DNA of 64,000 nt from Selaginella tamariscina (lineage: Eukaryota; Streptophyta; Lycopodiopsida; Selaginellales; Selaginellaceae), in NCBI GenBank assembly GCA_003024785.1, contig PUQB01000281.1:124001-188000 (forward strand), in the 5' to 3' direction. Below, in pieces: positions 17,138-40,195 of the stretch. Position 1 is the first letter of the stretch, and each line of letters starts with the position of its first letter. The notes beneath the pieces were generated by a model. The model searched no databases and was not told the origin of the DNA. It saw nothing but the letters and a program-made list of their open reading frames with translations. A program made the translations under genes and the position numbers.

Positions 17138-17205
17138 GGCTGTTGTGGATGTGTGCTCTCTATGAGCTCTATTTAAAGTGGTAATGAACCTTCCTTTGAT
17201 CATCC

Positions 17206-17705: not shown

Positions 17706-18138
17706 AGTTGTGGGCATACATGTTGGCCAACAGCACGAGTGACGAGCTATTGTCCGGGTCAAGATGAAGAACCTTTCCAGTTCTTTGGGATGCCCGAACC
17801 AAGTCTTGCTGCGTTCTACACGAGCCAATAAAGCTCATCAAAGCTGCACTGTCCGCCTCGAAAGGCATGTTCTCAACGAGATCCTGAGCATCAAGAAGCC
17901 TCCCACACTGCCCAGTATATCAACCATACAACAGTAGTGATCCACCATCACCGAAACACTGCAGTCTTGCAACATACTAACAAAGAAAACCCTTGCCTTT
18001 TGCGGCTTATCACCGTGGCTAAACACACTAAGCACGCATGTCAGTGTGGCTTTGTTGGGTTTACCACCCTCCAAGTTTAGCTCGTGTGTTAGTTCTATAG
18101 CTTCCTTGATACGCCCAATATGGGCATATGCATCAACC
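17706..18138 (-). pseudogene. 3' fragment of a PPR gene, truncated by a retrotransposon junction
   Basis: Read on the minus strand, this is the C-terminal end of a PLS-class PPR protein: HIGRIKEAIELTHELNLEGG, a post-PPR repeat (ATLTCVLSVFSHG), DHYCCMVDILG and the E-motif-like tail. It matches 58302-58740 of the longer PPR gene. Homology stops abruptly near 18138, where the sequence becomes gypsy pol (TCGATCCTGACAAACT). More than 300 codons of the 5' side are missing, and there is a frame break near GCGTTCTACACG. It should be non-functional. Confidence 0.8.
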
Positions 18139-19581
18139 AAGTCGATCCTGACAAACTCGTGGCAATTTTAAAGTTTCCTACATTGAAGTGTGTGAACGAT
18201 GTATAACGCTTTCTTAGCAAGGTACAATATTTTGGCCGTTTTGTGGATCATCTTTCAGATCGTATTATACCATTGCGAGCGTTATTAAAATTGTTAACAT
18301 CATCTTTTGTCTGGTTTAAGAATTTCAAACAAGCGTTTGCAGATCTTAAAGAGATGTTGACAACTCCTTTAGTTTTGATGTACCCTAGTTACACTTGTCC
18401 CTTTATCTTGGGCGTGGATGCTTCTAACATTGGACTTGGGGGCATATTGATGTAGGAGAGTACGAGTGTACTTGGTCAAAGACATCCCATTGTGTACATT
18501 AATCGTACGTTGCAGCCAGCATAGGTGAATTGCTCCATGATAGGGAAGGAGTGTTTAGCAGCAGTTTGGGGTTTTGAGAAGCTCCATGACTACTTGGACG
18601 CTATTGGAAGGCGATCATGCTGTAGTCATTTCATTACTGAAGCGAAAGAATTTGGTTTGGTTGTACTGCTGAGTGGGCTTTGAAGCTTTAGATTTACAAT
18701 TTTCAAGGTTGTTCGTCGCCCAGAGAGTTCCATGGTTAATGCTGATGCTCTTTCTTGAGCTCCTCTTTCACCTTCTTTCTCTTTTTCTGTTCCTAAAGAG
18801 CTAGTTGTTTCAACATCAATCAATTTTCTGGACAAGGATTCAATACCATTAATAGTTGCTGTGTTTGACATTCAATATCTACAAGGTGTAGAGTTTAGAT
18901 TTGCCGTCTTTGAATGAGGTTCGAAAAGTTCAAAAGGTTAAGTTATGGATTCGACGGCTTTGTGATGGGTTGAGAATCCTACATTATTTGCTTTTCAAGC
19001 ACTTACATTCGCAATATCGCTTTCAAGACGACCTTCTTTATTTTGTGGGGACTGATCCAGATAATCATTTGCAGTTGGTGGTGCTTTCGATCTTTGTTCC
19101 ACGCTTACCATGACTCCCTTGTTCTCGACGGGCACATGGTACATCGTCATGTGATTGAGAAGCTGCGTAAATCTTTTTATTGGCCAGAGTTGCGAAGAGA
19201 TGTGATTCGATATGTGCGTAGTTGTGTAAGTGTCAAGCTCGCAATACTCCCCCATGTACTTCGAAAGGACAATTGGAGTTAATTGTAATTTCTTGTCCGT
19301 TTGAGTTGGTGACGTTTGATTTGATGAGACCTTTTTTACAATCGATTGTTGGCAATGAGTACGTTATTATTACTTCTGACTACCTAACTTGTTGGGTGGA
19401 AGTTGGTGCTCTTGCTAATGTGACTACCTTTGCTGTTGGTTAGTTTCTCCTTACTTGAGTTGTGTTCTAGCATTCTTGTCCTGAGCAGATTCTCTTAGAT
19501 AATGGTCCTACATTTATGGCTAAAGCATTTCATGTCTTGACATTTCAGCTGGGGATACATCACACCTTCATAAGTACTTAT
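18139..19581 (+). mobile_element. Gypsy copy C, left part (RNase H to integrase)
   Basis: A decayed pol fragment of the same family as copies A and B. It starts inside the reverse transcriptase/RNase H junction and runs through the RNase H core (FILGVDASNIGLGGILM, 18405-18455), the integrase zinc region (19140-19270) and integrase core (19300-19440). It ends at AGTACTTAT (19573-19581), where a large TIR element has inserted. The remainder resumes at 39386. Its 5' LTR, gag and most of RT are absent; the break coincides with the PPR junction. Confidence 0.85.
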
Positions 19582-19608
19582 ATGCACGTTGTAACTAAAA
19601 TGGGCATG
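19582..19608 (+). repeat. Left terminal inverted repeat
   Basis: 27 bp beginning ATGCACGTTGTAAC and ending TGGGCATG. It matches the complement of 39355-39381 at 25 of 27 positions (differences at positions 4 and 6). It is preceded by TTAT. Confidence 0.88.
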
Positions 19609-19789
19609 ATACGTGAAAATGGGAATATAAAATAAATTACTAATTAATACTTAAGTTTTAATTATTAATTAATCATTTAATTAATATGTAATTAAGCCTT
19701 AAATATTAATTAATTAATTAATTAATCCTTCAATAACCACTAAACATAATTACAAATGAAATCATTTCCTTATCAACATGTTAATTTAT

Positions 19790-20972
19790 TTATAAATACT
19801 TTTTCCTAACATACAGAGAAATCTTCATTTTGTCTAAATCATCACTCTCCGGATTAATCAAATCATTTTGGTCAATATCTTGATGTTGTTGCCACCACCT
19901 AACACTCTCACGAATGCAATTGGGAGTTGCCATCCTTGTTAATACATAAGATGTAATAAGACCAGGTCTGCATAAAGGCTCATCTAAAAATGACGTTCCT
20001 TAAGAATAATATTATAAAGCGCCCGGTTGCTATCCTTCATTTTATAAAATTCAAAATCACGAGAAAGAAAAGCTTCAGGAAATGTTTGATACGGTGGATA
20101 CTGCTCACAAAAATTTTCGAGATTCTTCTTTCTGAGGCACGTATCCAAGTAGTTCACTAGCTCATCCATGATATCGTATCAGAATATGGATCGAAAGTGA
20201 TTGGATGAATACAAGCAATGTTTTGGTTGAGCATAGCCTTCTGAGGAGAGTCGTCTACCACTAAGATATGTGCATTCTTCATTATCCTTAAGCGACTGAT
20301 CTCCCCATGAGTCCCAATTATTCTTTCATTCTTGAAGAAGTATGGCTTGCTTTCCTTTCTTATATTGTGAAATTCGAGAGGTTTATAACATATTCGCTGG
20401 TCAAAAATCCAATCTTTACGAATCACCTCTTCTGCAACACTACAATGTTTCTTAAGCAAATTCAACAGCGGTGTTAAGTTATGAATCTGCATGCATGACC
20501 AAATCCCCACAAGCGCACCCATCTCCTTAAGCTTTTGAAAGAGACGATCCAACCCTGGACGAAAAATAATATCATATCGAAATTTACCATGACAAGGAAT
20601 GAAATCTCCTTGTTTGATTTCTTTTTTCCTATCCTCGGGCCTTTGTCGATGAAGCAGAACACCATTGACATCCAACAACACAATATGGCCATGAGTAACA
20701 TGGATAGCGTTGCCTCTTGAATACTTTGCAAATCACTTGTTTGCTCCCTTTCACATTTATCGTTGCACTATCTCGTTGCCTATCCCTTCATCATTTAATT
20801 GTACATCATCCTTACAAGATTCAGATATTGCATGCGCTGAAGAAATTGATTTCGGAACTGAAGCCAATAAAAATGATGATGAAAAAACTGAAGTGGCCCC
20901 CATGGTAACGATGTTTTGAGCTGCATTATTATCCATTTCCTGCATGAACTCTGTCATTCTGACATGTGGCAC
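19790..20972 (-). pseudogene. FCP1/HAD-type phosphatase-like gene of the TIR element
   Basis: The main frame (20681-20157) reads as a HAD-fold domain of the FCP1/NIF type: LLDVNGVLLHR at the start (first motif, with asparagine at the second acidic position), GIWSCM (second motif), WIFDQRICY, and LVVDDSPQKAMLN (last motif, DD metal ligands). The C-terminal part continues in other frames at 20169-19984 (DELVNYLDTCL) and on to a stop at about 19790 (CRPGLITSYVLTRM). A candidate N-terminal segment lies at 20972-20757. At least three frame changes are needed, several next to short homopolymers (for example the T run at 19984-19990). Loss of the second catalytic aspartate suggests altered or absent phosphatase activity, though DxN variants exist in HAD-like plant proteins. 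It is the first gene inside the left end of the element. A role in transposition is unknown. Confidence 0.65.
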
Positions 20973-21225
20973 AAGAAATTGTCGCCAAACCCCTCTCTTA
21001 CCTCATGCCAATGCTGAAAATCCATGTTCTCAATGTTTCATTACATCTGCAAAATGATAATTAGCTGACCTTAAAATTATCAAGGTATATTATTTACCTT
21101 GTTAATGTGTGACCCATGTTTGAACTAAAAGCTTCATTAATCCTTGAGAATTTATTTTCTGTACAAATATAAACGAAATATACAAAAATGCCTTATGTTA
21201 CACTCATTTACAACTATTCGTCACT

Positions 21226-24110
21226 CTAAGAACTCATTAACAATTCTTCTTCGCTATTACCTTCTGAGTGAGGCGAAGAAGGTCTAAGCCGCTTGTGAGA
21301 TGGTTCAAGATCTTCTGTATCTTCTATTGATGTTTCCATGGGTAATGGAGTGTGAATGTTCTGTACTCCTCGAGATAACTTCCGGTCTAATATCTGATTG
21401 AAGTTCGTCCTCAGACTCCGACATTGAACCAGATTCGTCTTCAGAGCTATCGCACTTATCGGAGGGAACTTTCTCAAATACTCCTTTATGGATTCGTTGG
21501 GGTAGTCAGTTGAGAACCTATCTATCCACTTGTTCAGGTCCTCAACCATGGTCTTATCCTTTTCAACGGCAAACACACATGTATCCCGAAGGTAACACTC
21601 CTTCAAGACGGACCCCCTAGTGCAGTAGTCAAAAAACGCATCACTGTGAGGACCCCTGATCAAGTTGACGATGCTCCGTGCCGCTTGACTTGTGATGTTT
21701 GGATAACGTACATTGCCGAATACGTCACTCTCAGCTATCGGTGTATCGGATGGAGGTTCAGGGCCGTTGGAGTGCAAACAGATGCCTGGCCAGTCATTTG
21801 GAAGTTTGAAACTGTTTGGCGCATTCCTAACAACCAAGTGAACAACCGAATCAATGCACTTCGGATCAGCATCATTCATATAAAATCCTGTCCAACGATG
21901 TTTATTCCTCTTGGCAAAGGAGAAGGCAAAGGTATCGGTGACATGAGCAAGAATCAAGAAATAAATACCTGAAAACTAGTATCAGTCAAGAGTGCAAGTA
22001 TGAATTCAATAATAAATACCTTCTTTGTACATGCTTGCACGGCTAAGTTTCTCCACCAAATCCTCTAGTGTCCTGTCTGTCGAAGGATTTTTTGACACCC
22101 GCCGATCCATCACGAACAATTGAAACGGTTTCCTACAAGCAGTGATGGTACCCCATAAAGTCTCCGAATCCAACAACAAACATCTGTAGGGCTTGTCGTG
22201 ATTCGTAGCATCCTCCTTTATAAGGTTCAACTCGGTTCTCCGCTGAAGGACTGCCATAAGAGAAGGCGTCATCGCAATGTTCTCCTTCTTGGCGTTGGCG
22301 TGCAATAGATTCTTGCCCAGATCTTCCGATTGATTCACCCATTCGACAAGCATATCATCATTTGTCACATGCAAATATTTGCTGACCTCTTCGTATGTTG
22401 AAGCCGAAATCCAACCCAGTTTGTGGCAGTGTATTCCCAACCACTCCTTGAAGTGCCTGACCGTCTTCAACTCCATTGCCTTGAGATGAAAAGGAGAGGT
22501 GGGGCTGTTTGTTAATGTAATTTGCCATCAATCACCAAATCAGCCAAGACTTTCTCCTCCATCGTTGTTCCATTTAAAGGCTTCAACCATGTGAGCTTGA
22601 AATCGTTGTCTACATCCTTTATAGATTGAACAGACTTAGCCTTCGGCGTCTTACTGGGTTTCTTTGCAGACTTCTCTGAGGGCTCCACTTCACTTGTCTG
22701 CTTCTTCTTCAGTGTTCCTTTTGCAAAGGATTCCATAATCCCCAACCATTTAAAGATCCTATCCTCGGGACAAGAAATCAACATCATCAAAAAGGATGTT
22801 TCCTTCCCGCCCACACTGGGCAAAATCAACTGCTACAATTTCTTCAACTCTCTAAAAAAAAGACAGATTAATATACCGCGAGATAAATCCCGCCCAAACA
22901 ATTTGCTTACCCGGTAGTCCGCAGATTGTGTATTCCCTGTAGTAGCTCTTTGTGGTCGCTGAAGAGATTCCCACACACTCGTGTGTGTTTGAACTTCTCC
23001 ATATTTTGCTGTGTAGTGGTTGGTGTCTGCAGCGTCCCATTCCGCCGATAACTTATGGTACTGCTCGATTGTGAGATTCGGCTTCGCTAAAAACGCCGAT
23101 CTTTTTGTCAGCTTCTCACGGGTATGCTCGGAAAGTTTTGTTGCCATCGTTCCTTTGTTGTGTTCGTCGAGAAGTCGTTGGGCTGCCGTTATTGTGTGCT
23201 GGCCACTAATGATGTAGTACTTGATGATTTTCTATTCTCCGTCTGAACCTTCCTCATTTGTTCCGGTGTTGTGATCCACACTTTGTCAGCGCCTTTGTTT
23301 CTCTCGTAGTATGCGCACAAAACAATTATGTGGAACGGTGTAAGAATTGTCGTCCTTCATCTTCTCCATGAGCTCAGCTACACGTTCCTGATTGAGTGGC
23401 CTGTAATTGAAGTTTGGGTTGACGCTGCAATACTTAACCCTACACTCGTAAATCCTATCATCCAACATCATTTCCTTGTGGCTTATTGCAGCATGGGACG
23501 CCACAGGTGCAGCTGACAAAACGAGATTTTCTTCTACGATCCGAATCAACATGTGTGATCCCCGATTGATGCTGTTCTAATGTTCTCGGCACACTCTTCC
23601 AGCTCCCGAAATTTGCTAAGCAAATTGAACGTGATCTGTAAAACCTGAGACCAAGCCACCCTCTCAATCTCCTTATGATGTCGCTGTGTTCTTCTTCAAT
23701 GTGAAGAGAAGATTGCTCCACTTGTGATTTTTGTATTGTGAAGCAATATCTCTGAGAATACACCTACTCGATGAGTCTGAAGATCTTCGAAGTAACATCC
23801 AGTTGGATCCCCTCCATAGATGGGCTTTCGTTGAGTTGAAGAAGAACTCCACGGTCAACATCATTAGTGAACACGTGAACGTCATTATCCACAAGTCGAC
23901 AAAACCACCCGAAATTAATGTTGTAACTGGCGACCTCTGGATCCGAGAACGTGACATTGGATGGAACAAGGCATATGTGTCGAGCATCGTCAATCTGGGT
24001 TGCAGCATGCTTTCGGATGCTTGACTAGCACACCCACTTTCCATTGTTTTGCTTGTCCATGCGATGTGACAGAGGTTAGTTTGACAGCAACCATGGTTGT
24101 TCCAATGCGC
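21226..24110 (-). CDS. ParB-like plus methyltransferase-like protein of the TIR element (several frame breaks)
   Basis: A multi-segment minus-strand coding region of roughly 850-900 residues. From the N-terminus: a segment at 24000-23777 (DDARHICLVPSN...IFRLIE); an intron with GTAGGT donor; a helical segment at 23705-23570; a ParB/sulfiredoxin-like block with NYRPLNQERVAELMEKM (about 23405-23355) and, after frame changes, KYYIISGQHTITAAQRLLDE (about 23223-23164); then 23147-22903, an 80-90-bp intron, 22838-22512 (lysine-rich), 22476-22018, an intron of about 58 bp with clean GT-AG frame restoration, and 21957-21226. The last part resembles a beta-class amino-methyltransferase: QLFVMDRRVS at the place of a DPPY motif (about 22125-22090), then GIYFLILAH, then FFDYCTRGSVLKECYLR...VFAVEKD like the FxGxG/E-x-D motif I (about 21640-21560). 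The DPPY and glycine residues are degenerate. Family calls are by eye. The C-terminus is rich in Ser/Glu with a KRLRP basic stretch. Confidence 0.55.
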
Positions 24111-24631
24111 TTCTTTTTAGTTTGAAATATGGCCAAGTTGATTCCAGAATCCCCCTGCCCATCTCTTCTCCTGCTCTCGTCTTTAATGTCACCTCAATTC
24201 CACATCTGAATACAAAAATGATTAGTTCAAGCACATATCCGAGTATAACAGATTTTTTTTAATTCTTACCCAGAATTTGACGACGACTCCATACTAATGA
24301 CTCGATCTCCTTGTTTAATTAAATCGTCCTTCTGCAAAATAATACACTATGAATACAAATCATATAAAAAGCACACACACTTGTATAAACCCGAATATAC
24401 AAAAATAATACACAGAGAGAAGTGACGGAATTAACTGTCCAAAGCTCACTTTGTGTAGTGCAAAAGAAAGATAACATTTCGTTTTAGAACCACCACAAAT
24501 GTGAGCTCTGGACAGTTTTACATAGATTCCTAGCTTTTACTCGAAATATTATGATAAGATGATAAAAGTAAATAAAATGAGATATGCAACTTATATATAC
24601 TAATACACATATATATTCACATGGAAGGTGC

Positions 24632-25571
24632 GGCGGGATTAATCTCGCCACCCCTTCAATGCCTCCTGAAAGAGTGGGCGGGATTAATCTCGCCACCTTT
24701 CTGGAGGCCTTGAACGGGAGTGCGGAATTAATCTTGCCACCCTTCTCGGTCTCAGAGAGAACTTCAGGATTTATTTGCACACCCCTTCAGTGACTCCAGA
24801 AAGGCGGCGGATTAATCTCGCCCACCATGTAAGGGATGGTTAAATGAATTTCGCCACCCTTCCCAGTTCTCTCCATTGGTATGTTGTAAACCTTCTACGT
24901 CTCAGACAGAAACGTTTGGGATTGGTCCGACTCACCAATGGAGAAAAAAGGAAGGGTGGCGGATTCATTCCTCCAACAGGCATTGAAGGCTCGGCGGGAT
25001 TAATCCCGCCAGGGCCCTAGGCGCGGGATTAATCCCGCGGACGCCAATTCCCTCGCGGAATCGGGGATTAATCCCGCCGCCTAGGCCCTTCAGGCAGGCC
25101 TTTGGCGGGCGGGATAAATCCCGCCCGATTCCGCACAGGCATGCGTACGCGGCGGGATTAATCCGCGCCGGCCCTTCACTCGGGCCTTAGTCGGCGGGAT
25201 TAATCCCGGACGCCAATGCCCTGTGCGGAATCCGCGGGATTAATCCCGCCGCCTAGGCCCTTCAGGCAGGCCTTTGGCGGGGGATTAATCCTGCCGGACG
25301 CCAATGCCCTATGCGGAATCCAGCGGATTAATCTCGCCGCCTAGGCCCTTCAGGCAGGCCAATGGCGACGGGATAAATCCCGCCCGATTCCGCGCAAGAC
25401 ATGCGTAGGCGGCGGGATTAATCCCGCCGCCCAGGCCCTTCACTCGGGCCCTGTGCGGAGGATTAATCCCGCCGCTCATTTGGCTAACCGAATAACCCCT
25501 GAAATGGCGGCGGGATTAATCCCACCGCTACACACGTCTCAGCATATAGCGGCGGGATTAATCTCGCCGCT
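24632..25571. repeat. Palindrome array 1: about 18 copies of an 18-bp palindrome
   Basis: The perfect self-complementary 18-mer GGCGGGATTAATCCCGCC occurs exactly at 24993-25010 and 25411-25430, and with one to three changes about sixteen more times. From about 25020 to 25571 copies recur every 39-50 bp, mostly 44-46. Spacers include repeated GCCTAGGCCCTTCAGGCAGGC and GACGCCAATGCCCT. The array is strikingly GC-rich against an AT-rich background. It lies upstream of the minus-strand ParB-like gene. Confidence 0.9.
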
Positions 25572-25790
25572 ACACACACACACACATATGTATATGTGTG
25601 TGTAGGAGAGTGCGTGTGTGTGCCAGAGATAAACAAATCAGATAAAATTATACAGATACACACACACACACAATATATGTATATGTATATGTATATACAG
25701 GAAGTGCGTGTGTGTGCGAGAGATAGATAAATAAATAAAATTATACAGAAACTGGTACACATAATATATGTATGTATATATGTACATAGG

Positions 25791-25833
<43 letters not shown>

Positions 25834-26542
25834 ATGTATATCGTGTGTATGCGTGTGTGAAACAAATAAAATCATACAGATAAACAAAACACACACACAC
25901 ATATATATATACAGGAGTGTGCGTGTGTGTGCGAGAAATAGATAAATAAATAGAATATATATATATATATATATATATAAATATACAGATATATATAGAT
26001 ATATATATATCTGTGTGTATATGTATACGAGTGTGTGTGTGTGTGCGAGAGATAGAGATCTAAATTATATTATTAAGATACACACACATATAAATATATA
26101 TGTGAATAAAATAAATAAATAAACTCAGAGGAGTGTGCGTGTGAGAGAGAGAGAGAGATTTCACCTATGTCAGAGAGAGAAGGAGATTTCACCGCCGCCG
26201 CCGCTGCCGCTTACAAACCCTAGGAATATACTTAAACCTTAAAAGGAATAGAATATATATTAACCCTAATCGAATATTCCTTTTAAGAATATACTTAAAC
26301 CCTAAAAAGAATAAACTATAGATTCGCCCTAAACGAATATTCTTTCATTATATTATCAGCGTGTGCGTGTGCGTGGGTGTATCACATACACCCAAGAATA
26401 AATATCATGCAAGAGTTTAACACGTGTGTGTCCATGAGAGTGTTAAAGTTTCACGTGCAAAATACATATATACACACATAGTATTATACACATAGACATA
26501 CATACATATTAGTACATATTAATATTAGAGAGACAGAGTACA
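25572..26542. repeat. Microsatellite-rich centre of the TIR element
   Basis: No gene is supported. CA/TG, TA and GATA-like tracts alternate (AC at 25572-25586, TG at 25811-25832, TA at 25957-25978) with a recurring phrase GAGAGATAGATAAATAAAT. A short pair of related AATATACTTAAACCCTAAAA blocks lies at 26224-26345. Open frames here are low-complexity. Confidence 0.6.
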
Positions 26543-27020
26543 GGATCATGTATGGTGTGTATGTATGAGAGAAGTGATAATACATATGGATCATGCATGG
26601 TGTGTATGTTTGAGAGAAGAGAGACAGTACATATTTACATGGATCATGCATGGTGTGTATGTATGAGAGAAGAGAAAAGTGTTAACAAATTAAATTCATA
26701 CACAATGTCATTGCATATTAGTACACACATATACATACACACGTGTATACACATAGACATACATACATATTACATGTGTAAATTCAATGTGTTACATAGG
26801 GTTTAGGGTTAGGATGGATCATGCATGGTGTTTATGTATGAGAGGAGTGAGTGTTATACACATATATACATTATACATATTACATAATATTGTAACATCA
26901 GTACATATTATGGATCATGCATGGTGTGTATGTATGAAAGAAGAGACAGGCTACATATTATGGATCATGATCATGCATGGTGTGTATGTATGAGAGAAGG
27001 GATTATGCACGGTGACACTG
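26543..27020. repeat. Dispersed-tandem repeat of a 32-bp unit
   Basis: The phrase GGATCATGCATGGTGTGTAT followed by GTATGAGAGAAG recurs at about 26543, 26588, 26641, 26815, 26911 and 26963, with a decayed copy at 27000. Spacing varies from 45 to about 170 bp. The core contains the palindrome GATCATGCATG-like stretch. The open frames over it simply translate the repeat. Confidence 0.75.
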
Positions 27021-27218
27021 TGTATGATGTTTTTCAATAAAAAAGCAACATATAATTTCCAAGTTTAGTTTAGGGCAATGTGCATGTGTGTGCATATGTG
27101 TCTTTGTAAGTGCTTCTAATGCGTGTGCATGTGTATATATAAATTTATAATCGTGTTTATATATATATGTGCAAAACAAACATCGAATAATTAAGAAAAT
27201 ATTAATTAATATACACAC

Positions 27219-27925
27219 TATGAACATATTTTAAATTATACATAATAATATATGATTTTATCTAATATATAGCCATATATAGTTTTAATAATAATATATA
27301 ATTTAATATTGATAATAAGGTTTAACATTAGAATATTCTTGAAATAATAAGAAATTAATTGAGAAAATCCCATTAATATATACAAATGTAAATCAAGTAC
27401 TGAAATAATTAACTAAATTAATTATGATAATCATGTTTAATATTTAAATATTCTTGGAATAATAAGAAAATAATAAAGAATATCACATTAATATAAAGAA
27501 ATTAATTACTCAAGTAATTAAGAAAATGAAATTAATATACACACTATGAACATATTTTAAATTATATAATAATACATCATTTTATCTAATATATAGTCAT
27601 ATATAGTTTTAATAATATATATTAATTTAATATTGATAATAGGTTTAACATAGGAATATTCTTGAAATAATAACAAATTAATTAAGAAAATCCTATTAAT
27701 ATATACAAATGTAGAATAATTACTGAGATAATTAAGAATAAGACTAATTTAATTATGATAATCAGGTTTAATATTGAAATATTCTTTCAATATTAAGAAA
27801 ATAATAAAGAATATCCCATTAATAGTAGGAAATGTAAATTAATTACTCGAGTAATTAAGAAAATAATAATAATAACAGACTATGATATATTTAAATGATA
27901 CATAATAATATATCAATTTATTTAT
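27219..27925. repeat. Tandem repeat of 326-335 bp, two full copies and a partial third
   Basis: Units start with TATGAACATATTTTAAATTA at 27219 and 27545 and with TATGATATATTTAAATGATA at 27880. Internal landmarks repeat in order: GTTTTAATAATA, AGGTTTAACAT, GAATATTCTTGAAATAATAA, AATCCCATTAATATA. Very AT-rich; no coding potential. Confidence 0.8.
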
Positions 27926-27935
27926 TGTATTAGTG

Positions 27936-27966
<31 letters not shown>

Positions 27967-28555
27967 AACTCAATAATATATACTTGAATATTAAGAATGT
28001 AGAACAATTACAAAAATTTCGTAATATTAAACAGCTTGAAGCACTTGAATAACATTAAATGCAATTTTAAAACACTCACTGGAATTGGAGAGTATATATG
28101 TCAGACTGTCGATTATTTATTTCAACTCATCTTAATTTTCTTTTCTGTTATTTCAAAAATTTCGAATTTCTGACATAAATATTATCAGTCTGACATGTAA
28201 ATTTGAAAATGCATTTAATTTCCCACTCAAATTCAGATCTAGTTCTTTCTCCGGCAAGGGTTTCTTTATTTCTTTATTTTTCACTCTTTAGATTTTCTTT
28301 TTTCTTCTTAGTAATCAGCTCAGTAGCGACATTAAATTGGGTGCGCTATTGTTTATAGGAAAGCACGACGCCTTCAGTGCTGTTACAAGTAAGTATTATA
28401 AACAAATTTAGATATATTTATAAAGATTCATTCTTTTACATTCTCTCTTAAATTTTAGAATTTAGGGATTTAGGAATGCATTAAGATTACAATATATTTT
28501 GTTAGGGATTTATCCCGTTTAAATATATCTTTAACTTAATATTCTCGGTTAGCCG
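27926..28555. other. Spacer, possible leader of the plus-strand element gene
   Basis: A TA tract lies at 27936-27962. Near 28330-28395 a GC-richer stretch ends in ACAAGTAAGT, a good 5' splice site, which could be a leader exon for the gene whose first clear coding exon follows an acceptor at 29419. No protein match. Confidence 0.3.
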
Positions 28556-29272
28556 GGGCAGCGGGATTAATCCGGCCATTTTTTTTCGCCTCTTTGAAGA
28601 GGTGGCGGGATTAATCCCGCCACCATCTCTTTCATAGCTATGGCAGAATTAGTTCGGGCAATGCTTCTCCGTCTCTTAAAAGAGCGGCGAGATTAATCCC
28701 GCCGATAACTCTCTCAACTGATAATGATTTATTTGAATTTATTAAAAAAGAGTTGTCGCGGGATTAATCTCCCAACCATTTTAGGAGGCAGAGAAGGGTG
28801 GCGGGATTAATCTCGCCACTACTTCCCTGTTTTAAATATTTGTGGGCAGGATTCATCCCGAATCTCTTTGAAATAATAGTTTCGGAGAGAGTTGTGGGCG
28901 AGATTAATCCCGCCGCTTATTCCCCATCGTCAGAGTTGTGGGCGGGATTAATCCCCGCCACCGATTCTCCGTCATTAGTGTTTGTGGACGGGATTAATCC
29001 CGCCCCTCTTCCTTGTCGGAAGAATTTGCGGCGGGATTAATCCCGCCAACTCTCACAAACGAGGAAGATCCGGCGGCGGGATTAATCCGCCGGTACTTCC
29101 TTGTCGGAGGGAGCCCACGGCAGGATAATCCCGTCGGTACTTCCTCATTGGAGGGAGCCCGCGGCGGATTAATCCCGTCGCTTCTCTCCGACGAGGAAGT
29201 ATCGGCGGCGGGATTAATCCCGCCGACTCACTCTGAAGGGGTAGAGTCTATGGCGGGATTAATCCGCCCATC
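28556..29272. repeat. Palindrome array 2: about 16 copies of the same 18-bp palindrome
   Basis: The 18-mer GGCGGGATTAATCCCGCC of array 1 recurs here, perfect at 28604-28621 and near 29030 and 29205, otherwise with small changes. From about 28894 to 29250 copies are spaced 44, 46, 45, 44, 43, 44, 44 and 46 bp apart. Spacers differ from array 1 and carry CTTCCTTGTCGGAGG-type repeats. The array ends about 150 bp before the first coding exon of the DUF7869-type gene. Confidence 0.9.
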
Positions 29273-30915
29273 AGTTAATATTAATAAAGCATGAGATATT
29301 TTCTTTATATATAATTATGTATTATTGCACATGCATATTATTAAACAACCGCAGTTATTGATTTTCTTAGAAATATTGCATAAACAGATATCATAAATAA
29401 CACAATTATTTATGTGCAGGACAATATGTATATACTGAAGATAAAGTATGTCTTCTTCGGAACAACGAGATAGTTGGCACTGGAACTGTGAAAGTTCGAG
29501 ATGAAATGCATCATGTCACAATATTGCCCAAGGATCTTATGTGTATGTATGGGTGAACACCATTTTCAAGCATGTTGAGGTTCATGAATGGAATTTGATG
29601 AGGGTTCTCCTGTATTGTGGAATTTGGATGAAGTCAAGGCTGACACAGATATACAAGTCACAAACAACAGTAGCACGAGTTTTCCAGATGATGGCTTGCA
29701 TGCTGTGATGGATGAGGTGATCTCTTTCTTCATGAGATTGAGGTTGGGAGAGGCATCATCATAGCTATAAATCCAATGGAAGCATGTCAGAAGAGAAACT
29801 AGGGTCTGACTTCGTGGGTGTAGTTGTGACAAAGGTTTCACCTAATAGCACTTTGCATCCTGGATCCCTCGTGAGGTGGCGAACATTTGAATTAAGACGG
29901 CAAGATGGTTCAATATATTCTGGGTTGGATTTCAATAATAACAATCCGGAAGAACAACTCATATTTAAAGAGGTTCCTTGCATTGGTCCTATTATAAGAA
30001 AAAGGCGATTCATGGGTTGCAGATCTTCCCCTGCATGTTTCAGCAAGAGGGTGAAGATGGATCCTACATCTTTCGAAAGTGTTACAGCATTTCCACGATT
30101 GACTGCTGCAAGAAGAAGTGTTGTCAGATGGCAGACCGGAATGAAATTACCCAATGTAGACATGTCTTTCGTACGTTCACCCAAAAGCAAAGGCATGAGT
30201 TTGTATATGCTGCACTAACTGGGTGTATTGATGGAATGGCCTCGGACACAGGTTATCAGAGTACATCCATGGTATTTAATAAGGTGGCCATCTGCTTCAA
30301 AAGCTTGGTAAGTATATACGGGATCCCAAAGACCACGTTCTACTGTCGGAGGATGAATGGTTAGATGGAGCGTGAACCTCAGTACATGGGAACACTGGCT
30401 TGGTCAAAACCCACTCTCACATTATGGCAGCCATAGAGATACTCAAGGCTTTTATGGAAGCAAATGCAGACAGGATGCCTCACAAATGCCAACCACAAAT
30501 GCAGGGGTCAGGGAAAATCTCAAGGTTTTGCCTTCGATCTACACTCAATTGAAGCTGTGTGAACATGTTGAACAAGTGCCTCAGCTTTATGGGGCTGCAA
30601 GCAATCTGCACTGGTACCTTCAACAACATATGGAATACTCATTTTAAGGATGTGGAGATTGCAAAAAACTCTAGCTTTTCCAAGTGTGACACTTGTACAT
30701 CGTTGAAGGCTGCAGAGGCTTGTGCAAAAACCTTGGTGGAGAATCACTGCCATTCAAAAGAAGATGGAGCCCACATGAATTCACAACAAACTTGCCGGTC
30801 TCAGTACTATGCACACCGCATGCTTTCTGTGTCACGCCCATCAGAGTACCTGTGCTTGATCCATGACAGATGGATCATTCAAAGACCAGCATTCCAAAGC
30901 TCGTTGCAACACCAA

Positions 30916-31528
30916 TGTCAAGCCACGATTCAGGAACCAGGAAGAGAGCAGGATTCCAAGAATAAGGAGGCTTGACTCAGGAACAGGACAAAGAGCAGGA
31001 CAGGAACTAGGAACTCAGGAGCAAGACTGGAACCGGATAGGATCCGGAGAGACAGGAACAGGATAGGATCCAGAAGCCAACAGGAAGGCGCAGGACAGGA
31101 TCCAGGAACAAGATAGGAACATGATAGGATCCGGAAGCAGAACAGGATCCGAGAGCAAGACAAGAGCAGGAGGCAAGGAGCAAGAACACGAACAAGACAA
31201 GAACAAGAATGATCATAAAATGACTGGTGTTGATAGTAACTGATTGTACAACAATTAGGTCGCAGCTTTTATGCTCACAACTCCAAGCTAATCTGGTCAT
31301 GAGTCTAATCTAGTCATGAGTTTAATCTAGTCATGAGCAAGAATAGTGTCCCTTATCCTCTAGGCATATCCTGTAGCATATCCTATATGGCAATATCTAT
31401 AGGAATATCCTATAGGTATATCCTGTAAGAATATCCTGCAGGCATATCATGTAACCCATATCCTTATCCGAAATTCTGCATCCTGTATCCTGTATCCGGA
31501 ATCCTGTATCCTGTATCGGGTTGTGACA
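30916..31528 (-). repeat. 3' LTR of the chromovirus
   Basis: 613 bp, ends TGTCA/TGACA. The outer half is packed with GGAACAGGA/AGGATCC-like short repeats; the inner half carries repeated ATATCCTATAGG and CCTGTATCC. It matches 36571-37254 except for internal repeat-number differences. Confidence 0.9.
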
Positions 31529-31539
31529 ACACCTCCTCC

Positions 31540-31836
31540 CTAAGGACGAGTTCCACGAGTCTTAGGACCTGGTTTAGCAGGATAATGCTGAATGGAAGGC
31601 AGCAACTTTGAAAGAAGTATGGAGTAAGTTGGATGCAGGTTCCCAAGTGCGATGGTAGGCAAATAACCTTTCCAATCCACCAAGTATTGAAGTTGGCGGC
31701 GATGAAGACGAGAATCAAGGATGGCTGCAACTTCGTACTCAGGTTTACCAGCAATGACCACAGGAGGGGGAGGAGAAGAAGCACGACCAGGAAGAGAAGA
31801 AGGATGATACGGCTCCAACAAGGAGGTGTGAAACAC
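31540..31836 (-). pseudogene. Chromodomain at the C-terminus of chromovirus integrase
   Basis: The frame reads FHTSLLEPY then [12 protein letters not shown]...[10 protein letters not shown], the core of a chromodomain with its aromatic residues (Y, W), and a typical [15 protein letters not shown] tail. Chromodomains target new copies to modified histones. A shift within the WKGYLP...LGNLHP segment breaks the usual TWEP helix. Confidence 0.8.
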
Positions 31837-31839
31837 AGG

Positions 31840-33010
31840 ATGAAGTTTTCACCAATAGATGGTAACTCGAGTTGGAAAGCTACAGGATTAACCTCCGCCA
31901 CAATCCTATAAGGGCCCAATCGTTAAAAATCCAACTTAGAAGAAGGCCTGTGGTGCGAATGTGTCGACGAAGAAGCCACACGAGATCGCCAATCTTGTAT
32001 GCAGGTGCCGGTTGACGGTGAGCATCAGCATGATGCTTGTATCGTTCCTGTGCCTGCTGAAGATGAACCCGGAGATCATCCTGTACCTGACAAGAGCTGG
32101 AGACGATCCTGTACTGCAGGAGCGGAAGAAGGAGAAGCAGGAGGAGCAAAGTCAAAACGTGGATGGTGGCCTGTAAGAGCAAAGAAAGGTGTCTGGCCTG
32201 TAGATGCGTGAATGGAGTTGTTGTAGGCAAACTCCGCCATAGGAAGAAGGTCCAACCAATTATCCTGTTGGTAACTGATGAAGCAGCGAAGATATTGCTC
32301 CAAGGTCTGAATTGTGCGTTCTGACTGCCCATCAGTTTGCGGTGATATCCTGAAGAAAGATCCGCTTTAACCTGTAACTCCGAGAAGCTCTCGCCAAAAC
32401 TTGGACATGAATTGTGGACCTCGATCAGAAACAATGCTCTCAGGAAGACCATGGTGTCGGAACACTTCGCGGATCACCAACTCAGCAGTTGTCTGCCTGT
32501 AGCAGTCTTGTTACATGGTAGGAAATGAGCCTGTTTGGTGAAACGGTCAACCACCACAAGAACTGCATCAAATCCGCGAGAAGGAGGAAGATCTGTGAGG
32601 AAATCCATAGAAATGGATCTCCAAGGAGCAGAAGGAACAGGAAGAGGACGAAGAAGACCAGAGGTGCATGATGAGGCATCTTCGACCTGTTGCAGGTGTC
32701 ACAACTCCGTACAAACCTTTCCACAAAACCTCGCAACCCAGGCCACCAATAGTTGTGAGTCACCAACTCAACTGTCTTGGCCACACCAAAATGTCCTGTA
32801 GCCGGGGTATCATGACAATCCTGTACCACACGAGTCCTGCAAACACCAACAGGAACGTACAGGAGACCTTCCCGTACAGGAGTCCTCCTGTATGGCAAAC
32901 AGCGTGTAGTCTGAACGGGAACTGGAGGAAGAGGAGCTTGCAATGTCAGGACTAATGTGTGAGAACACATTCCTTGCCAAGTCGTCTGTAGCCAATTGCG
33001 AACGGATGTC
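31840..33010 (-). pseudogene. Integrase region of the chromovirus
   Basis: The HHCC zinc domain is visible at about 32640-32830 (CHDTPATGHFGVAKT...CDTCNRSK), followed in other frames by the catalytic core (DFLTDLPPS...[11 protein letters not shown] near 32520-32600) and [18 protein letters not shown] at 32180-32260. Several single-base shifts separate these pieces. Confidence 0.8.
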
Positions 33011-34340
33011 CTATAGAAGTGTTGAATCTGCTGGAGCCTGATGAACCTGTAGTGCCGCAAGCCGGAATCGATCAGGACCCAACAGCACTTGTCTTTGACA
33101 GTCATATGCAGGATCGCCTGGGACCGGTGCAAGGTAAGAGCGCCTAGACAATGCGTCCGCCTTGCCATTCCGAAAACCGGGCCTGTAGACAATGACGAAA
33201 TCAAAACGTGATAGGAACTCTGCCCACCTAGCCTGTCGTTGACTGAGAACTCGAGCCGTTTGAAAATACTCCAGGTTCTTGTGATCCGTAAGAACTTGTA
33301 CAGGATGCGCAGCACCTTCCAGGAAATGCCGCCACTCCTCGAACGAATCCACAATGGCCTTGAGTTCCTTGTCATGAATCTCGTAATTGATCTCCGCCGA
33401 AAGGAACTTACGAGAGTGAAAAGCTACAGGATGAAGCAACTTGTCTTCTCCAACTTGTGATAGGACGGATCCTACTGCAAAATCCGAGGCATCTGCTTCA
33501 ACGAAGAAAGGACGAGAAGGATCAGGATGTGCTAAAATCGGAGCTGTCGTGAAGGTGTCCTTGAGTGTTGTGAATGCATGTTCCGCCTTGTCGGACCAAG
33601 AGAAAACCTCTGTGCGCTTGGTGAGTTCCGTGAGTGGAAGTACACGCTTGGAGAAGTCCTGTATGAACCGCCTGTAGAAGTTTGCAAAGCCAAGGAAACA
33701 TTGTACATCTCGTACAGACTTGGGCCTCTCCCACTCCACGATGGTCTTCACCTTGTGCATGTCCATGGAAACGCCAGCAGGAGAGACGATGTAGCCCAAG
33801 AACTCCACAGAATCCCTATCGAAAAAAACACTTCTCCAACTTCGCATACAGGCCATGCTCGCGAAGCCGCTGTAGAACCAATCGTACATGCTTGTCATGT
33901 GCCGCCTGGTCCTTGGAGAAAATCAAAATGTCGTCGAGGTAGATCACCACAAACTGGTCCAAGAAGTCACGAAAGATGTCGTTCACCATGTGTTGGAACA
34001 CGGCTGGGGCATTGGTAAGGCCGAAAGGCATCACCGTGTACTCGAAGTGTCCATACCTTGTACGAAAGGCAGTCTTCCACTCATCGCCTGGACGAATCCG
34101 TACAAGGTTGTAGGCCCCTCGTAAGTCGATCTTGAACACCTTTGCTCCTCGCAGCCGATCGAGAAGTTCCGGGATCAATGGCAACGGGTACCGATTCCGA
34201 ATGGTGACTTGATTCAAACCCCTGTAGTCCACAACCAAACGTAAGCTCCCATCCTTCTTCTTGACAAAGAAATAGGCGCTCCTGCAGGGGACTTTGAGTG
34301 ACGAATGAAGCCGGATGCCAAGTTGTCCTCGATGTACTGA
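33011..34340 (-). pseudogene. Reverse transcriptase and RNase H of the chromovirus
   Basis: RT at about 34238-33816 includes [33 protein letters not shown] and the catalytic [13 protein letters not shown]. RNase H at 33898-33011 includes FLGYIVSPAGV, FFVEADASDFAVGSVLSQ and LTDHKNLEYF. One frame change near 33830 (a seven-base A run on the plus strand) separates RT from the connection domain; otherwise both frames are long and open. Confidence 0.92.
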
Positions 34341-35509
34341 CGAAGAACCTCCAACTCTGTGGGTGACAATGCATAAATCGGTCCGAACGGTGGAGTCTTT
34401 CCTTCCGCAAGATCAATAGGACAGTCGTAGGACCTGTGAACAGGAAGAACTGCAGCCTTGTGCTTGTCAAAAACGTCCTTAAAGGAGTACTTGGATGGTA
34501 GGGAAGAAGAAGGAGAAGGAGGGCAGGAGAAGGAGATTGAAAAACAGGAGAGTCAGACACAGGAAAGGTAGAAGAGGACGTAGGAGTTACTTGAAAGGCA
34601 AAAAGGTGGAAAGGAGCAGGATCAGTGGTAAGTTCATGCATGGTAGTGGTAAGAACTCGGAGAGGAGAAGGAGGGAGCTGTGACTGAAAAAGAGGAAGGA
34701 TCTTGGGGGGTGGAACAGAAAAGTAACAAAAGGAGGCAGGATTGGGAAAACAGATGTGGATGTTGACAAGTGTACAGGATTGGGAATCCTGTACAGAAGT
34801 CCGTGGTTGCACAGGAGTGAGGAGAGCCTGTGAGTGTGCTGACGAACCAACAGGAGGTGGATCCTGTTGAGGAGGAACCTTCGACACTGATACAGGATTG
34901 GAAGAACCCTGTACAGGAATCCGCAAACTTACAGGAGTGGAGAGAGCCTGCGGATGTGCTGAGGAACTGACATGAGGTGAATCCTGTCGAGGAGGAGCTT
35001 CAACACTGGTACAGGAACAGGCACGGTCAATCCTGTAGCTTGTACTGCCTCAGACACCAAGGATGTATCCTGCACGCAGGAAGGTACAGGATTGATCCTG
35101 GCTGCTGGAGAGGAAAACGTGAGCGTCCTAGACCTCCAGTCGATCTGCGGATTTGCAACAACGAACCATGGCATGCCAAAAATGATGGGAGTCGACCGAG
35201 TCTTGATCAAGTTGAAGGAAATCGAACAGTTGAATGCGCCATGACTGCAAAGAGAGGTGTGGTAGCGTGGGTAACTGCGCCAGAAGCAATCAAACGACCA
35301 TCGGCCACCTCTACAGGAACTGCACGCTTCAACTTCACCACCGGAATGCCATGCTGAGCTGCAAAAGTGTCATCCATGAAACATGCATTTGCACCAGTGT
35401 CTAACAGGGCAAACTCCTTGAGCTCTCGGTTATTGAGGCGAATGTGTACAGGAAACTTGAGTGATGGAATGGTATGAGCAGCACCAATGGAGCCTGCACC
35501 TACGTCCAA
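34341..35509 (-). pseudogene. Protease region of the chromovirus
   Basis: The 35509-35207 frame contains FALLDTGANACFMD, the aspartic protease active-site motif, followed in another frame by PIIFGMPWFVVANPQIDW. A proline/serine-rich linker to the RT follows (34926-34400). Frames are interrupted. Confidence 0.82.
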
Positions 35510-35600
35510 CTTCGCGGCTCCTAGACGAAGTGGACATTGAAGTTTTCCGACTGAACTTCAGCTTCGGCTTCACGCGTCTTGAACTTTCTGGCTTTATTAG

Positions 35601-36480
35601 GACATTCCGCCACCTTGTGTCCTGCTTCACCACAATACAAGCATAGGTTCTCACCCCACGACGTTGCTTCTCAGCAGTTGAAAGTGGGCCACGCTTGGAT
35701 TTGTTAACCTCCATAGGAACTGCTCCAGAAGGTGTCGTAGGAACATGTGCTACGGCTACAGGATTGGCTGGCAGGAACTGCTGACGGAATTTTTCTGACG
35801 GCGCTCGAACAAACGGTTGTCGCAGCGAACGGCCTGTTGCATGATCTCCGCTAACGTTTGAGCATCCGGTAAGTAAGGAGAAGGTCCTTCACGTCATCCC
35901 TCAGCCCAAAACGGAAGTGTTCGATCAATGCAGTCTCGTCCCATGGAATGTTCGTGCACAATTGCTGAAATTCGGATGCATAAACGGAAGCTGGTCTGGA
36001 TCCTTGTGTGAGCCTTCGTAACTTTGTGCATGCAGAACGGTACTTATCGGGATCTCCAAAGCAGGCTTCAAAGGCAGCCACGAAACCTTCAAAATCTTCC
36101 ATCAATGGGTCGTCACGTCCAGCAAGGGGCAACCCAAGCCGTGGAGATCCACTAGTAAGGATGCCAAAAGGCCAACCTTTTGTGCATCAGTAGTAGCGGC
36201 GTGGTTGCATGCGGATCAAGAGCCGGATCTGATTCAGGAAACCTTGGAAATCGGTGCAATTTGCCACTGAACTTTTCTGGCATGCTGATCTTCGGCTCCG
36301 AAGAAAAGTTCGATGAGAGGAAACCACCGATGCTTGAGAGAGAGCCTGCGCAGCAGCCTTGGAGGATGCATCAGCAGCTGCATGCGCCGCATGGTGGAAC
36401 CTTGCAGATCTGTGACCACTTGGCGCAAAGTGTGAAGCAACATTTGGTGCTCGCGTTGAAAGTGCTCAAAATCGCCATGA
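35601..36480 (-). pseudogene. gag of the chromovirus with zinc knuckle
   Basis: The frame at 36132-35851 is a canonical Ty3/gypsy gag segment (DFEGFVAAFEACFGDPDKYRS..., VYASEFQQLC, LIEHFRFGLRDDVKDLL). A CCHC knuckle CLYCGEAGHKVAEC lies at about 35601-35644. The N-terminal part toward 36480 is in a different frame. Confidence 0.85.
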
Positions 36481-36570
36481 TCTATGAAAGAAAAAAAAGA
36501 GGAAAAACGAAGGAAGAAAACCAAGGAAAAAAATAGGAATCGGAGAGCTATGGGACAGTTACTATCAAAC

Positions 36571-37254
36571 TGTCAAGCCACGATCCAGGAACCAGGAAGA
36601 GAGCAGGATTCCAAGAACAGGAGGCTTGACTCAGGAACAGGACAAGGCAGGACAGGAACAGGAAAGAGCAGGACATAACAGGAATCAGGAGCAAGACTGG
36701 AACCGGATAGGATCCGGAAGAGACAGGAACAGGATAGGACCGGAGCCAGACAGGAAGGCGCAGACAGGATCCAGAAACAAGACAGGAACAGGATAGGATC
36801 CGGGAGCGCAGACAGGAAGGCGCAGGACAGGATCCAGAACAAAGAACAGGAATAGGATAGGATCCAGAAGCAGAATAGGATCCGAGAGCAAGACAAAAGC
36901 AGGAGGCAAGGAGCAAGACAAGAGCAGGAGGCAAGGAGCAAGACACAAACAAGACAAGAACAAGAATGATCGTAGAATGACTGGTGTTGATAGTAACTGA
37001 TTGTACAACAATTAGGTCGCAGCTTTTATGCTCACAACTCCAAGCTAATCTGGTCATGAGTCTAATATAGTCATGAGTTAAGAATAGTGTCCCTTATCCT
37101 CTAGGCATATCATGTAGCATATCCTATAGGAATATCCTATAGGTAATCCTGTAGGAATATCCTACAGGCATATCCTGTAACCCGATCCTGTATCCAAAAT
37201 TCTGCATCCTGTATCCTGTATCCGGAATCATGTATCCTGTATCGGGTTATGACA
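36571..37254 (-). repeat. 5' LTR of the chromovirus
   Basis: 684 bp, TGTCA...TGACA. About 70 bp longer than its partner because of extra GGAACAGGA-type repeat units around 36740-36860 and 36900-36950. Confidence 0.9.
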
Positions 37255-38785
37255 ACCAAAGTGCCTTGGAAATGTCATGAAACTTCGATTTCATTGACAG
37301 TGTGTTAACACATGGACACGGTTATGAATCATATGGACACTTTTCACTTCCACATTGGTCTAGCGACTCCAATTTCACTATTGGTCGTTGGCCATGTGTT
37401 TCAGAAACCTTGAAGCCCACTCACAGACAAGTCTTATCAGTGATCTCAAAGTGAAGAAACAACACCTTCAACCTTTACATAATGCTCTCATGAACACGTC
37501 TGCACTTAAGGCTACTTGGAATATGAGAGGCATTGTCAGCAACCTACACAAAAAAACAGATGGCCCTGTTGAGAGTTCAGGTTCAGTGGAGGGATCTAGC
37601 TCAAATAGTGTACATGTGTCCTCAACATCAAATAAGCTTCCTCGTCATTTGCTTTTACAGATGGATAATTGTGCAGGCGAGAACAAAAATAGGTAAATCA
37701 TTTTACTTAAGGGTTTCTCAAGCTCATACTTACTTTTATTTTCTAGATATGTGCTAGCATACTTGTAATGCTTGTTGCCAAAGGTGTGTTTGAAAACAAT
37801 CACGCTCAGTTTTCTTATGGTTGGTCACACTCATGAAGATATTGATGCGTTCTTCAGCAAGGTCTCCAACTCTACAAAAAGGACAAGTGCACTTACCTTA
37901 CCGCATATGATGAATCTTTTTGAAAATTGCATCTCCAAAAAAAGTTGTGCTTTGCTTGTGACTGAGGTGCCAGATTTCAAAAATTTCTCAAGAAGTATAT
38001 AAAAGAGGGGAATGATTTTTAGTTGGTCACCTTGTGCCGCTACAATTCTTTTTCTCCATATGAGATGTATACTTATTATGCAATACAAGTTACGGCCATC
38101 AAAGCAGGAGTGGTTACCTAAAGAGGGGTTAATGCTCTTCAAAAGTGGAGAGAATGGAAAACCACTTCTCCCAGAAGGACAACCAGACCCTATTCCATTG
38201 AGTGCCAGCTCAAGGAACAAGAGGTTATTATTGATGCATCAAAAAATATGTGGCATGGGTTCAAAAATCGATGCTAAAGAATTCTGATAAGGCAACTGGT
38301 TACTCAGAACTATATAAGCATGTGGTCGACTATTGGGAGACTGTTGTTCGAGAGTTGGAAGGGCCTACTGTCACAAGTACAGAATTGCAACACCCTTTTT
38401 GGCCTAAAACAAGGTGGCGAGAGGAGATTGAAATGACATCATTGAGCACAGACGACATAGAAGCCAGTAGTGATGTGGAAGTGCAAACCCCACACTTTGT
38501 TGGACAAAGGAACCAAAAACCTAAAGCATACTTTGATTCTTGCCAGGATCTTCAAAAACTAATGATGGTTCTCATTACTCCAGATGCGTTATATAATCAG
38601 CTTATTTGGATGGGTCAAATTATCGACACACCTGAAGTAATCACAAAAAATAGTATTGTTAAGGTTGCATGGTTCAAACCACAAAAAAAGGCAACACGAG
38701 AAGGAGAGCGAAAGATATAATGGATGCCTAGAGAAAACATGGTCTCCCAATTAAAAAGACCCAGCATGTTTTATAAATGTTAAAT

Positions 38786-39354
38786 CCATCCGATATGGGT
38801 GGATGTCAAGAAGCGTTGATAAAGTCACGATTAACAAAACTGCAAGGGAATGTATGTTTTCTGAAGCTTAAAGCAATTACAAAATTATAAAATATCATAT
38901 ATTTAATATTCATAATTATTATAAACTCTTTAATAATAGTACCAAATTGTTTACTTAACTATATAAATTTAAAAAACGATATGGAAGATTGACTATATTA
39001 TTATAGGATTTTGTATTATATATATATTATTACTATTACAAATTTTTAATTAATAATGTTATATTTAAATATTAATATTTTAATAACAACATCAATATTT
39101 ATATAATGTACCTCTTATGCTCTTCCTTAATTGTTATATTAGGCAATATATTATATAATTTAATACCTTCTATTTTATAATGTTATTAATTTTTGTTCAA
39201 TGAATGCTATAATTTATTAAAGGGTCGAATACAAAATAGAATATTCTAAAGAATATTTGTTTTCAAACATATATTCTAAAGAATATTTCTTTAATATTAG
39301 AAAATGCTAATTAAATAGCTAAAATTGCTAATTATTAGGAAATGGGACTATAGC
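38786..39354. other. AT-rich right flank inside the TIR element
   Basis: No gene is seen. ATATTCTAAAGAATATTT occurs twice (39238-39258 and 39270-39290) as a short palindromic subterminal repeat. The left flank (19609-19790) is equally AT-rich but not evidently homologous. Confidence 0.5.
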
Positions 39355-39381
39355 CATGCCCATTTTAGTTACAACTTACAT
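39355..39381 (-). repeat. Right terminal inverted repeat
   Basis: Complement of the left TIR at 25 of 27 positions; followed by the target duplication TTAT at 39382-39385. Confidence 0.88.
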
Positions 39382-40195
39382 TTATCATCTTCAAACAGAT
39401 GGTTTGGTAGAACAGCTCGTCAGGACTTTCAAATGGATAATTGTAAAGTACATGAACTTTTAACATTCGGATTGGGATGATTATTTACCGTTTCTTCGAT
39501 ATGCCTATGTCATTGGAATACAGAGTTTTGTTGGTACTTCACTATATAAGCCAACATAATTGGGTCTACCTTCTCGTTTACCACGAGTTATTGATGTTAA
39601 GTCTTAAGATCAGTATTTGATGAGCATTATTTCATTAATTTGAGCACAGTCTGTAGAACACTTGGGCCATGTACAAGTGGGACAACAATGATGCTACAAT
39701 TCTCATCATCGTCCACCTGCAAAGTATAAGGTGGATGAGTTGGTGTTGGTTCGTTTTTCAAGCTTATGGTACGTGGTTTAGCCAAGAGTTTTCTTGCTTA
39801 ATGGAAGGGACTATATCGAGTGCTGCGGCATGTAAGCCACAAGTTTATAAGATTCGACACAACATTCAACCCGATCCTATAGAGATCACATGTGTGACGG
39901 TTGAAGCGTTTTATGCATCGGAGTCAAGAACAAGTTGTGTCACTTATAGATCCACCAATGCTTCCTCCTGATGTTCCTCATGATCCGGGCTCATTTATCT
40001 GGAGAACCCTAACCACCTTCCATCCTTCCAAGGGAAGGGGACAATGTAAAATCCACGTGTACAGTTGCATGCAAGCGTAGTGTAATGGATTTTAATAATT
40101 ATCGTATTGGTTTTAATTTGGACCACTCGCTCCTGTATATAAAATAGAGTTTTAGTCAATATAATATACACATTTCTATACTCCCAACTCTCACA
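39382..40195 (+). mobile_element. Gypsy copy C, right part with 3' LTR
   Basis: Resumes the integrase reading exactly where 19581 stopped (TTATCATCTTCAAACAGATGG), continues through the integrase C-terminus and ends in a purine tract (AAGGGAAGGGGACAA) and the 3' LTR at 40045-40195 (TGTAAAATCC...CTCACA, 151 bp). The coding sequence is decayed. Confidence 0.85.

Follow-up and report, generated by a model that had tools for sequence, protein, structure and literature searches.

A 64,000-nucleotide stretch of the Selaginella tamariscina genome (GenBank assembly GCA_003024785.1, contig PUQB01000281.1, forward-strand positions 124,001 to 188,000) was analysed and found to contain a 19,800-bp element bounded by terminal inverted repeats (TIRs), at positions 19582 to 39381. 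This stretch is the window to which all coordinates and counts refer, with strands given for those features that have one. About 13.5 kb of the element remains when a nested gypsy retrotransposon is set aside. The element is quite probably an old and broken giant cut-and-paste transposon of autonomous type, from the Sola superfamily or close to it and probably Sola1-like, in a plant-like genome. Its overall plan resembles that of a giant Sola element of a brown alga, which it fits in ends, size, and gene layout. Alongside a probable transposase gene, it carries a long accessory gene, a phosphatase gene, and two arrays of short palindromes.

The boundaries of the element can be read directly from the sequence. 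The left TIR (27 bp, 19582 to 19608, + strand; ATGCACGTTGTAACTAAAATGGGCATG) matches the reverse complement of the right TIR (27 bp, 39355 to 39381, − strand) at 25 of 27 bases, with scattered matches only farther inward, and the termini of the element have the form ATG...CAT (ATGCA and ATGTA). Immediately outside, the sequence reads TTAT on both the left (19578 to 19581) and the right (39382 to 39385), a 4-bp target-site duplication. When the two flanks were joined in silico, they gave an uninterrupted alignment with each of two other gypsy copies in the window, at 13808 to 14263 (80.8%) and 54197 to 54632 (79.5%), and detailed alignment showed the empty-site junction to be intact in both copies; the gypsy integrase that served as the target is therefore restored. 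The inverted ends, the duplications, and the restored empty site together show that an earlier note on this DNA was correct in placing the ends at 19582 and 39381, in describing 27-bp TIRs flanked by TTAT, and in stating that excision in silico restores the integrase. The duplication and the empty site also show that insertion occurred with a 4-bp stagger. A 20-bp TIR core searched with up to 3 mismatches occurs at 2 sites in the window, both of them element ends (0.01 expected), and the exact core has no match in viral_contigs or prokaryote genome_contigs, collections in which a plant element is not expected.

The gene that most probably encodes the element's transposase carries the domain DUF7869 and lies on the + strand, where the nested gypsy element splits it in two. 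Its 5′ part (29420 to 30915, exon start placed by eye) comprises a Cys-rich region and a first Asp motif, HD..MDHSKTSIP, which is interrupted by a frameshift, whereas its 3′ part (37255 to 38720) contains the second and third motifs, QMDNCAGENKN and VGHTHEDID; all three were recognised by eye. The 3′ part matches Pfam PF25273 (DUF7869) in unaltered DNA with E values of 1.4e-6 (37364 to 37693) and 1.5e-18 (37769 to 37999), and the pieced reading of the gene does so with an E value of 5.5e-35 (8.4e-32 in another Pfam search). The three Asp motifs would correspond to the DDD triad of a transposase. These matches bear out the presence of a DUF7869-type gene, which had previously been counted as cargo; given the DDD-like motifs and the Pfam match, it is better read as the transposase. 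Searches with a piece of the gene gave 15 pattern-matching stretches in viral_contigs and 80 in prokaryote genome_contigs, none of which was confirmed, and no matches in plasmids. GHTHEDVD-type motif strings are absent from the open-licence literature searched. On the opposite strand, the 5′ part is overlapped by a 143-aa open reading frame (ORF; 29765 to 30196) that is probably due to chance. As read here, the DUF7869, accessory, and phosphatase genes all contain frameshifts or stops, and this copy is therefore probably inactive.

Seven TIR superfamilies are described in plants, and Sola, which is one of them, is characterised by a DDD transposase, 4-bp duplications, and TIRs of 11–1124 bp; it is known from moss and is seemingly uncommon in flowering plants (available text of PMC10741241). 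The element agrees with this description in its 4-bp duplication with a restored empty site, in its 27-bp TIR, which falls within the published range, in its DDD-like motifs, and in the report of the superfamily from moss. Its size departs from the 2–9 kb of most Sola elements but lies in the upper range, where some exceed 15 kb, and its transposase was compared with those of Sola by description only (same text of PMC10741241). From these likenesses we infer that the superfamily is Sola.

Other superfamilies with some of these properties were considered in turn. Ginger shares duplications of 4–6 bp and occurrence in plants but has TIRs of 40–270 bp, 5′-TG...CA-3′ ends, and a gypsy-like integrase (available text of PMC10741241); it was ruled out by the ATG...CAT ends and the 27-bp TIR, and no integrase of the element's own was recognised. 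Kolobok and piggyBac also generate 4-bp duplications, but theirs are TTAA-specific as described in the available text of PMC9587614, and both were rejected because the duplication here is TTAT. CACTA (EnSpm) was excluded by the ends, ATGCA and ATGTA in place of CACTA and CACTG, and by a duplication of 4 bp rather than 3, and MULE, hAT, and PIF/Harbinger were excluded by duplication length (available text of PMC10741241 and general knowledge). The earlier note's rejection of CACTA, MULE, hAT, PIF/Harbinger, piggyBac, and Helitron is thus supported, as is its description of a TIR element with defined ends and a 4-bp duplication. Its further suggestions, that the cargo is unlike that of any known plant DNA transposon and that the element represents a new family, overlooked Sola, for which a 4-bp duplication, a DDD transposase, and presence in moss are all described in the text available, and find no support.

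The closest published counterpart comes from Ectocarpus, in which giant Sola-1, KDZ, and EnSpm elements have been described (PMC12477816, here and below as far as its text was available). Most of these giant families contain nested elements, their transposase is frequently dead, and several have no transposase and are presumed to be non-autonomous. One of the elements, Sola1-1_Ec32, is 21.5 kb long and encodes, opposite its transposase, an 1104-aa protein with ParB-like and DNA-methyltransferase parts; the authors propose that proteins of this kind may act on the transposon that encodes them, binding and modifying it, and they cite earlier reports from green and red algae. The element in the window is similar in size (19.8 kb) and has the same layout, with a long accessory gene (21226 to 24292, − strand) opposite the DUF7869 gene (29420 to 38720, + strand), and like the giant Ectocarpus families it has a nested element and a pseudogenised transposase (PMC12477816). 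It differs from Sola1-1_Ec32 in its host, which is plant-like rather than a brown alga, the two being likened by description and not by sequence, and in that its ParB and methyltransferase domains are unconfirmed. A term search of the available text of a review of giant transposons (PMC6431247) found neither 'Sola' nor 'ParB'.

Several results weigh against the assignment to Sola and the parallel with Sola1-1_Ec32. DUF7869 was set beside Sola by description and not beside a reference transposase, so that the two can be equated only provisionally, and in Pfam the DUF7869 match is confined to the 3′ part of the gene, with none for the 5′ part. The element is known here from a single copy, in the 64-kb window, and its phosphatase gene and palindrome arrays are unmentioned in the available description of Sola1-1_Ec32. 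A rival reading is a new TIR superfamily, in which DUF7869 would represent a DDD lineage apart from Sola and the 4-bp duplication would be convergent. In its favour, Pfam gives DUF7869 as a domain of unknown function, the name is absent from the open-licence literature searched, and the comparison with Sola was by description. It is nevertheless unlikely, because the 4-bp duplication, the DDD-like motifs, the size, and the opposite-strand accessory gene all match the giant Sola1 element as far as its published description was available.

Further adverse results concern the accessory gene, which has several exons and is broken. Its ParB-like motifs (about 23130 to 23440) were found by eye in the order NPNFNYRPLNQERVAELMEKM ... 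YYIISGQHTITAAQRL, which resembles that of a ParB N-domain, and its C-terminal part appears methyltransferase-like, also by eye. The gene is likely the counterpart of the ParB–methyltransferase protein of Sola1-1_Ec32. Searches of Pfam, NCBIfam, PHROGs, PADLOC, and PDB sequences gave no support for ParB or methyltransferase domains, with nothing returned from the PDB sequences for either the ParB or the C-terminal part; the weak matches obtained, such as those to DUF3879 (E 0.017, the best) and DUF6942 (E 0.12), concern unrelated families and fall short of the cut-off. Profiles were also built from 9 phage ParB–methyltransferase proteins from 10 loci, drawn from 40 of 628 records. One locus was left out because its annotated gene is short (140 to 745) and without the methyltransferase part, and one protein that was used runs off the end of its locus. 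These profiles were run, unfiltered, against 1195 window ORFs of at least 30 aa, 1 stitched accessory protein, and 500 shuffles of the stitched protein. With the ParB profile, the top score went to a shuffle (E 0.79), and the accessory gene was not separated from chance. The ORF containing the ParB motifs (E 5.5) ranked fourth overall and second among the ORFs, outscored by two shuffles and one unrelated ORF; the stitched protein was 34th in the ranking (E 56). With the methyltransferase profile, no piece of the accessory gene did better than 13th (E 17), and the stitched protein came 147th, although the missing methyltransferase match is weak evidence because the gene is broken. Two single-sequence fold predictions were of too low quality to serve as search models, with mean pLDDT values of 36.5 and 58.0.

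Further sequence searches with the ParB piece were similarly negative, giving 2 pattern-matching stretches in viral_contigs, neither confirmed, and 2 chance matches only in plasmids (E 6–7). A tblastn search against phages returned 9 weak records, the best of which (E 5e-3) proved to lie on the strand opposite a 455-aa ORF and was discounted as a chance match. The description of this gene in the earlier note as ParB/methyltransferase-like therefore stays unconfirmed, and the label derives from the reading of motifs. With every profile and sequence test negative, it is possible, if doubtful, that the accessory gene is instead an unrelated plant or transposon gene. The order of the motifs, which by eye resembles that of a ParB N-domain, argues against this. 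So does the position of the gene on the opposite strand, which is that of its proposed counterpart in Sola1-1_Ec32 (PMC12477816, available text).

The two palindrome arrays, both of which had been noticed previously, contain 18 sites related to GGCGGGATTAATCCCGCC in array 1 (24632 to 25568) and 14 in array 2 (28560 to 29269). The start of array 1 is 340 bp upstream of the accessory gene's probable ATG, and about 150 bp separate the end of array 2 from the first DUF7869 exon recognised downstream of it (both gene starts placed by eye), so that each of the two divergent main genes has an array at its start. Scanning the + strand for GGCGGGATTAATCCCGCC with up to 5 mismatches found 33 sites within the element, of which 32 belong to the arrays, and 1 site outside it. 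A lone palindrome-like site with 3 mismatches (22877 to 22894) lies inside the accessory gene and outside both arrays. When both strands were scanned at no more than 3 mismatches, the window gave 27 sites, every one inside the element, and exact copies of GGATTAATCC number 19 in the window (0.04 expected), all within the arrays. Most of the stretch between the arrays, from 25580 to 28500, is composed of GT/AT microsatellites and diverged repeats; the repeats include a 123-bp unit and another, containing ATGGATCATGCATGGTGTGTATG, that is present about six times. The GC content of this stretch drops to 18%.

Across the 32 sites, dyad complementarity is retained in 31, 32, 32, and 29 sites at the inner four positions and in 19–23 at the outer five. 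Within the two arrays, the 18-bp cores share a mean pairwise identity of 0.81 and 0.82, which rises to 0.92 and 0.93 over the inner 10 bp; core conservation is somewhat inflated because the sites were chosen for their similarity to the palindrome. The 13 bp on either side of the core are near random (0.30–0.34 within an array), and between arrays the core is 0.81 identical compared with 0.27–0.28 for the adjoining 13 bp. The spacing of sites is 39–47 bp in 22 of 30 cases, 82–87 bp in 3, and other in 5. This symmetry, rhythm, and conservation, together with the position of the arrays, suggest that they would be bound by a dimeric protein encoded by the element, and point to a possible binding site of the accessory protein.

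The arrays could alternatively be an ordinary decayed tandem repeat, a satellite without function in which the middle of the unit survived by chance. Tandem Repeats Finder reports periods of 88 and 44 bp at the arrays, and palindromes are able to expand as repeats, but near-random spacers beside a highly conserved 10-bp core, repeated in both arrays, make this explanation rather doubtful. The ratio of observed to expected CpG also speaks against it, at 1.02 and 1.18 in the arrays compared with 0.37 in each of the two parts of the DUF7869 gene, although the array spacers alone reach 0.56 and 0.79, and the contrast is partly built in because the palindrome consensus holds two CpGs and the sites were picked by that consensus. 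The corresponding ratios are 0.78 for the accessory gene, 0.76 for the phosphatase gene, 0.64 for the nested gypsy element, and 0.73–0.74 for the flanks.

The arrays also bear on whether the element could be a Pack-type capture, that is, a non-autonomous or small TIR unit that acquired unrelated genes, with DUF7869 as a passenger and the transposase elsewhere. All three genes are broken as read, and the available text of PMC12477816 includes several giant Ectocarpus families of presumed non-autonomous type without a transposase. However, a DDD-type gene is present inside the element with a palindrome array at its start, and chance capture leaves the divergent genes with their paired arrays unexplained; this origin is thus quite improbable.

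In the favoured reading, that of a Sola-like transposon of autonomous type, the DUF7869 DDD transposase would attach to the 27-bp TIRs, cut the element out, and reinsert it at a target cleaved with a 4-bp stagger, in this case TTAT, with both the cut-and-paste mode and the responsible enzyme being presumptive. The accessory and phosphatase genes lie on the strand opposite the DUF7869 gene, and the divergent main genes each have an array, read as a palindromic operator, just upstream. These arrays would be bound by a dimer of the accessory protein, with the transposase a less likely candidate, and both promoters of the element would thereby be regulated or marked; the arrays would then be the target of the accessory protein, whereas their methylation or shielding is speculative. 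A tentative extension, in which we place low confidence, is a self-addressing transposon, whose ParB-like (methyltransferase) protein bound the two arrays, 32 sites in all, at both promoters and modified or shielded the control region while the remainder of the element met silencing by the host. Such a system would fit the preservation of CpG in the arrays and its erosion in the DUF7869 gene.

The remaining gene, at 19984 to 20732 on the − strand, encodes a NIF/FCP1-like HAD phosphatase and is broken, being read in two frames. Its ORF matches PF03031 (NIF) with an E value of 2.1e-10, or 8.4e-11 with a second piece added, which identifies as a NIF phosphatase what had been called a HAD-like gene. 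The canonical HAD motif is DxDx. In this phosphatase (20157 to 20681) the motif reads DVNGVL, and the replacement of the DxD-type motif by DVNG makes phosphatase activity doubtful; the protein may lack activity or belong to a special class. A PDB sequence search with the phosphatase gave 4 chance matches only.

The nested gypsy long terminal repeat (LTR) retrotransposon (30916 to 37254, − strand, 6339 bp), which was absent from the earlier description of the element, lies inside the DUF7869 gene and has its reverse transcriptase coding on the − strand. Its LTRs lie at 30916 to about 31530 and at 36571 to 37254, and it is flanked by a 5-bp duplication, ACCAA (30911 to 30915 and 37255 to 37259). 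The LTR pair is 80.1% identical over 658 columns, with 41 mismatches and the remainder gaps. Outside the TIR element, 5 of 6 neighbouring ORFs scanned match domains, namely HSF, cytochrome P450 (two), PPR, and NUP50, a set in keeping with a land plant as host. Two blocks (15465 to 18139 and 55989 to 58733), the first of which matches P450 in Pfam, are 92–93% identical, whereas the gypsy stretches beside them (10131 to 14665 and 50573 to 55019) are only 78% identical. The two blocks and the adjoining gypsy stretches seem to have different histories.

The least expected feature of the element is the set of 32 palindromes in two arrays, with conserved cores and near-random spacers. Giant transposons of algae have been described with accessory proteins that may both bind and mark their own DNA, and a target site is unmentioned in the available text (PMC12477816). 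If the element belongs with these algal giants, its arrays would provide a concrete candidate target sequence for such accessory proteins and would link transposon-borne regulation to a plant-like genome. Should the self-addressing system prove real, the arrays would be the DNA target of algal-type accessory proteins, and the system itself would be placed in a plant-like genome. DUF7869, until now a Pfam domain of unknown function, gains a likely role as a transposase core.

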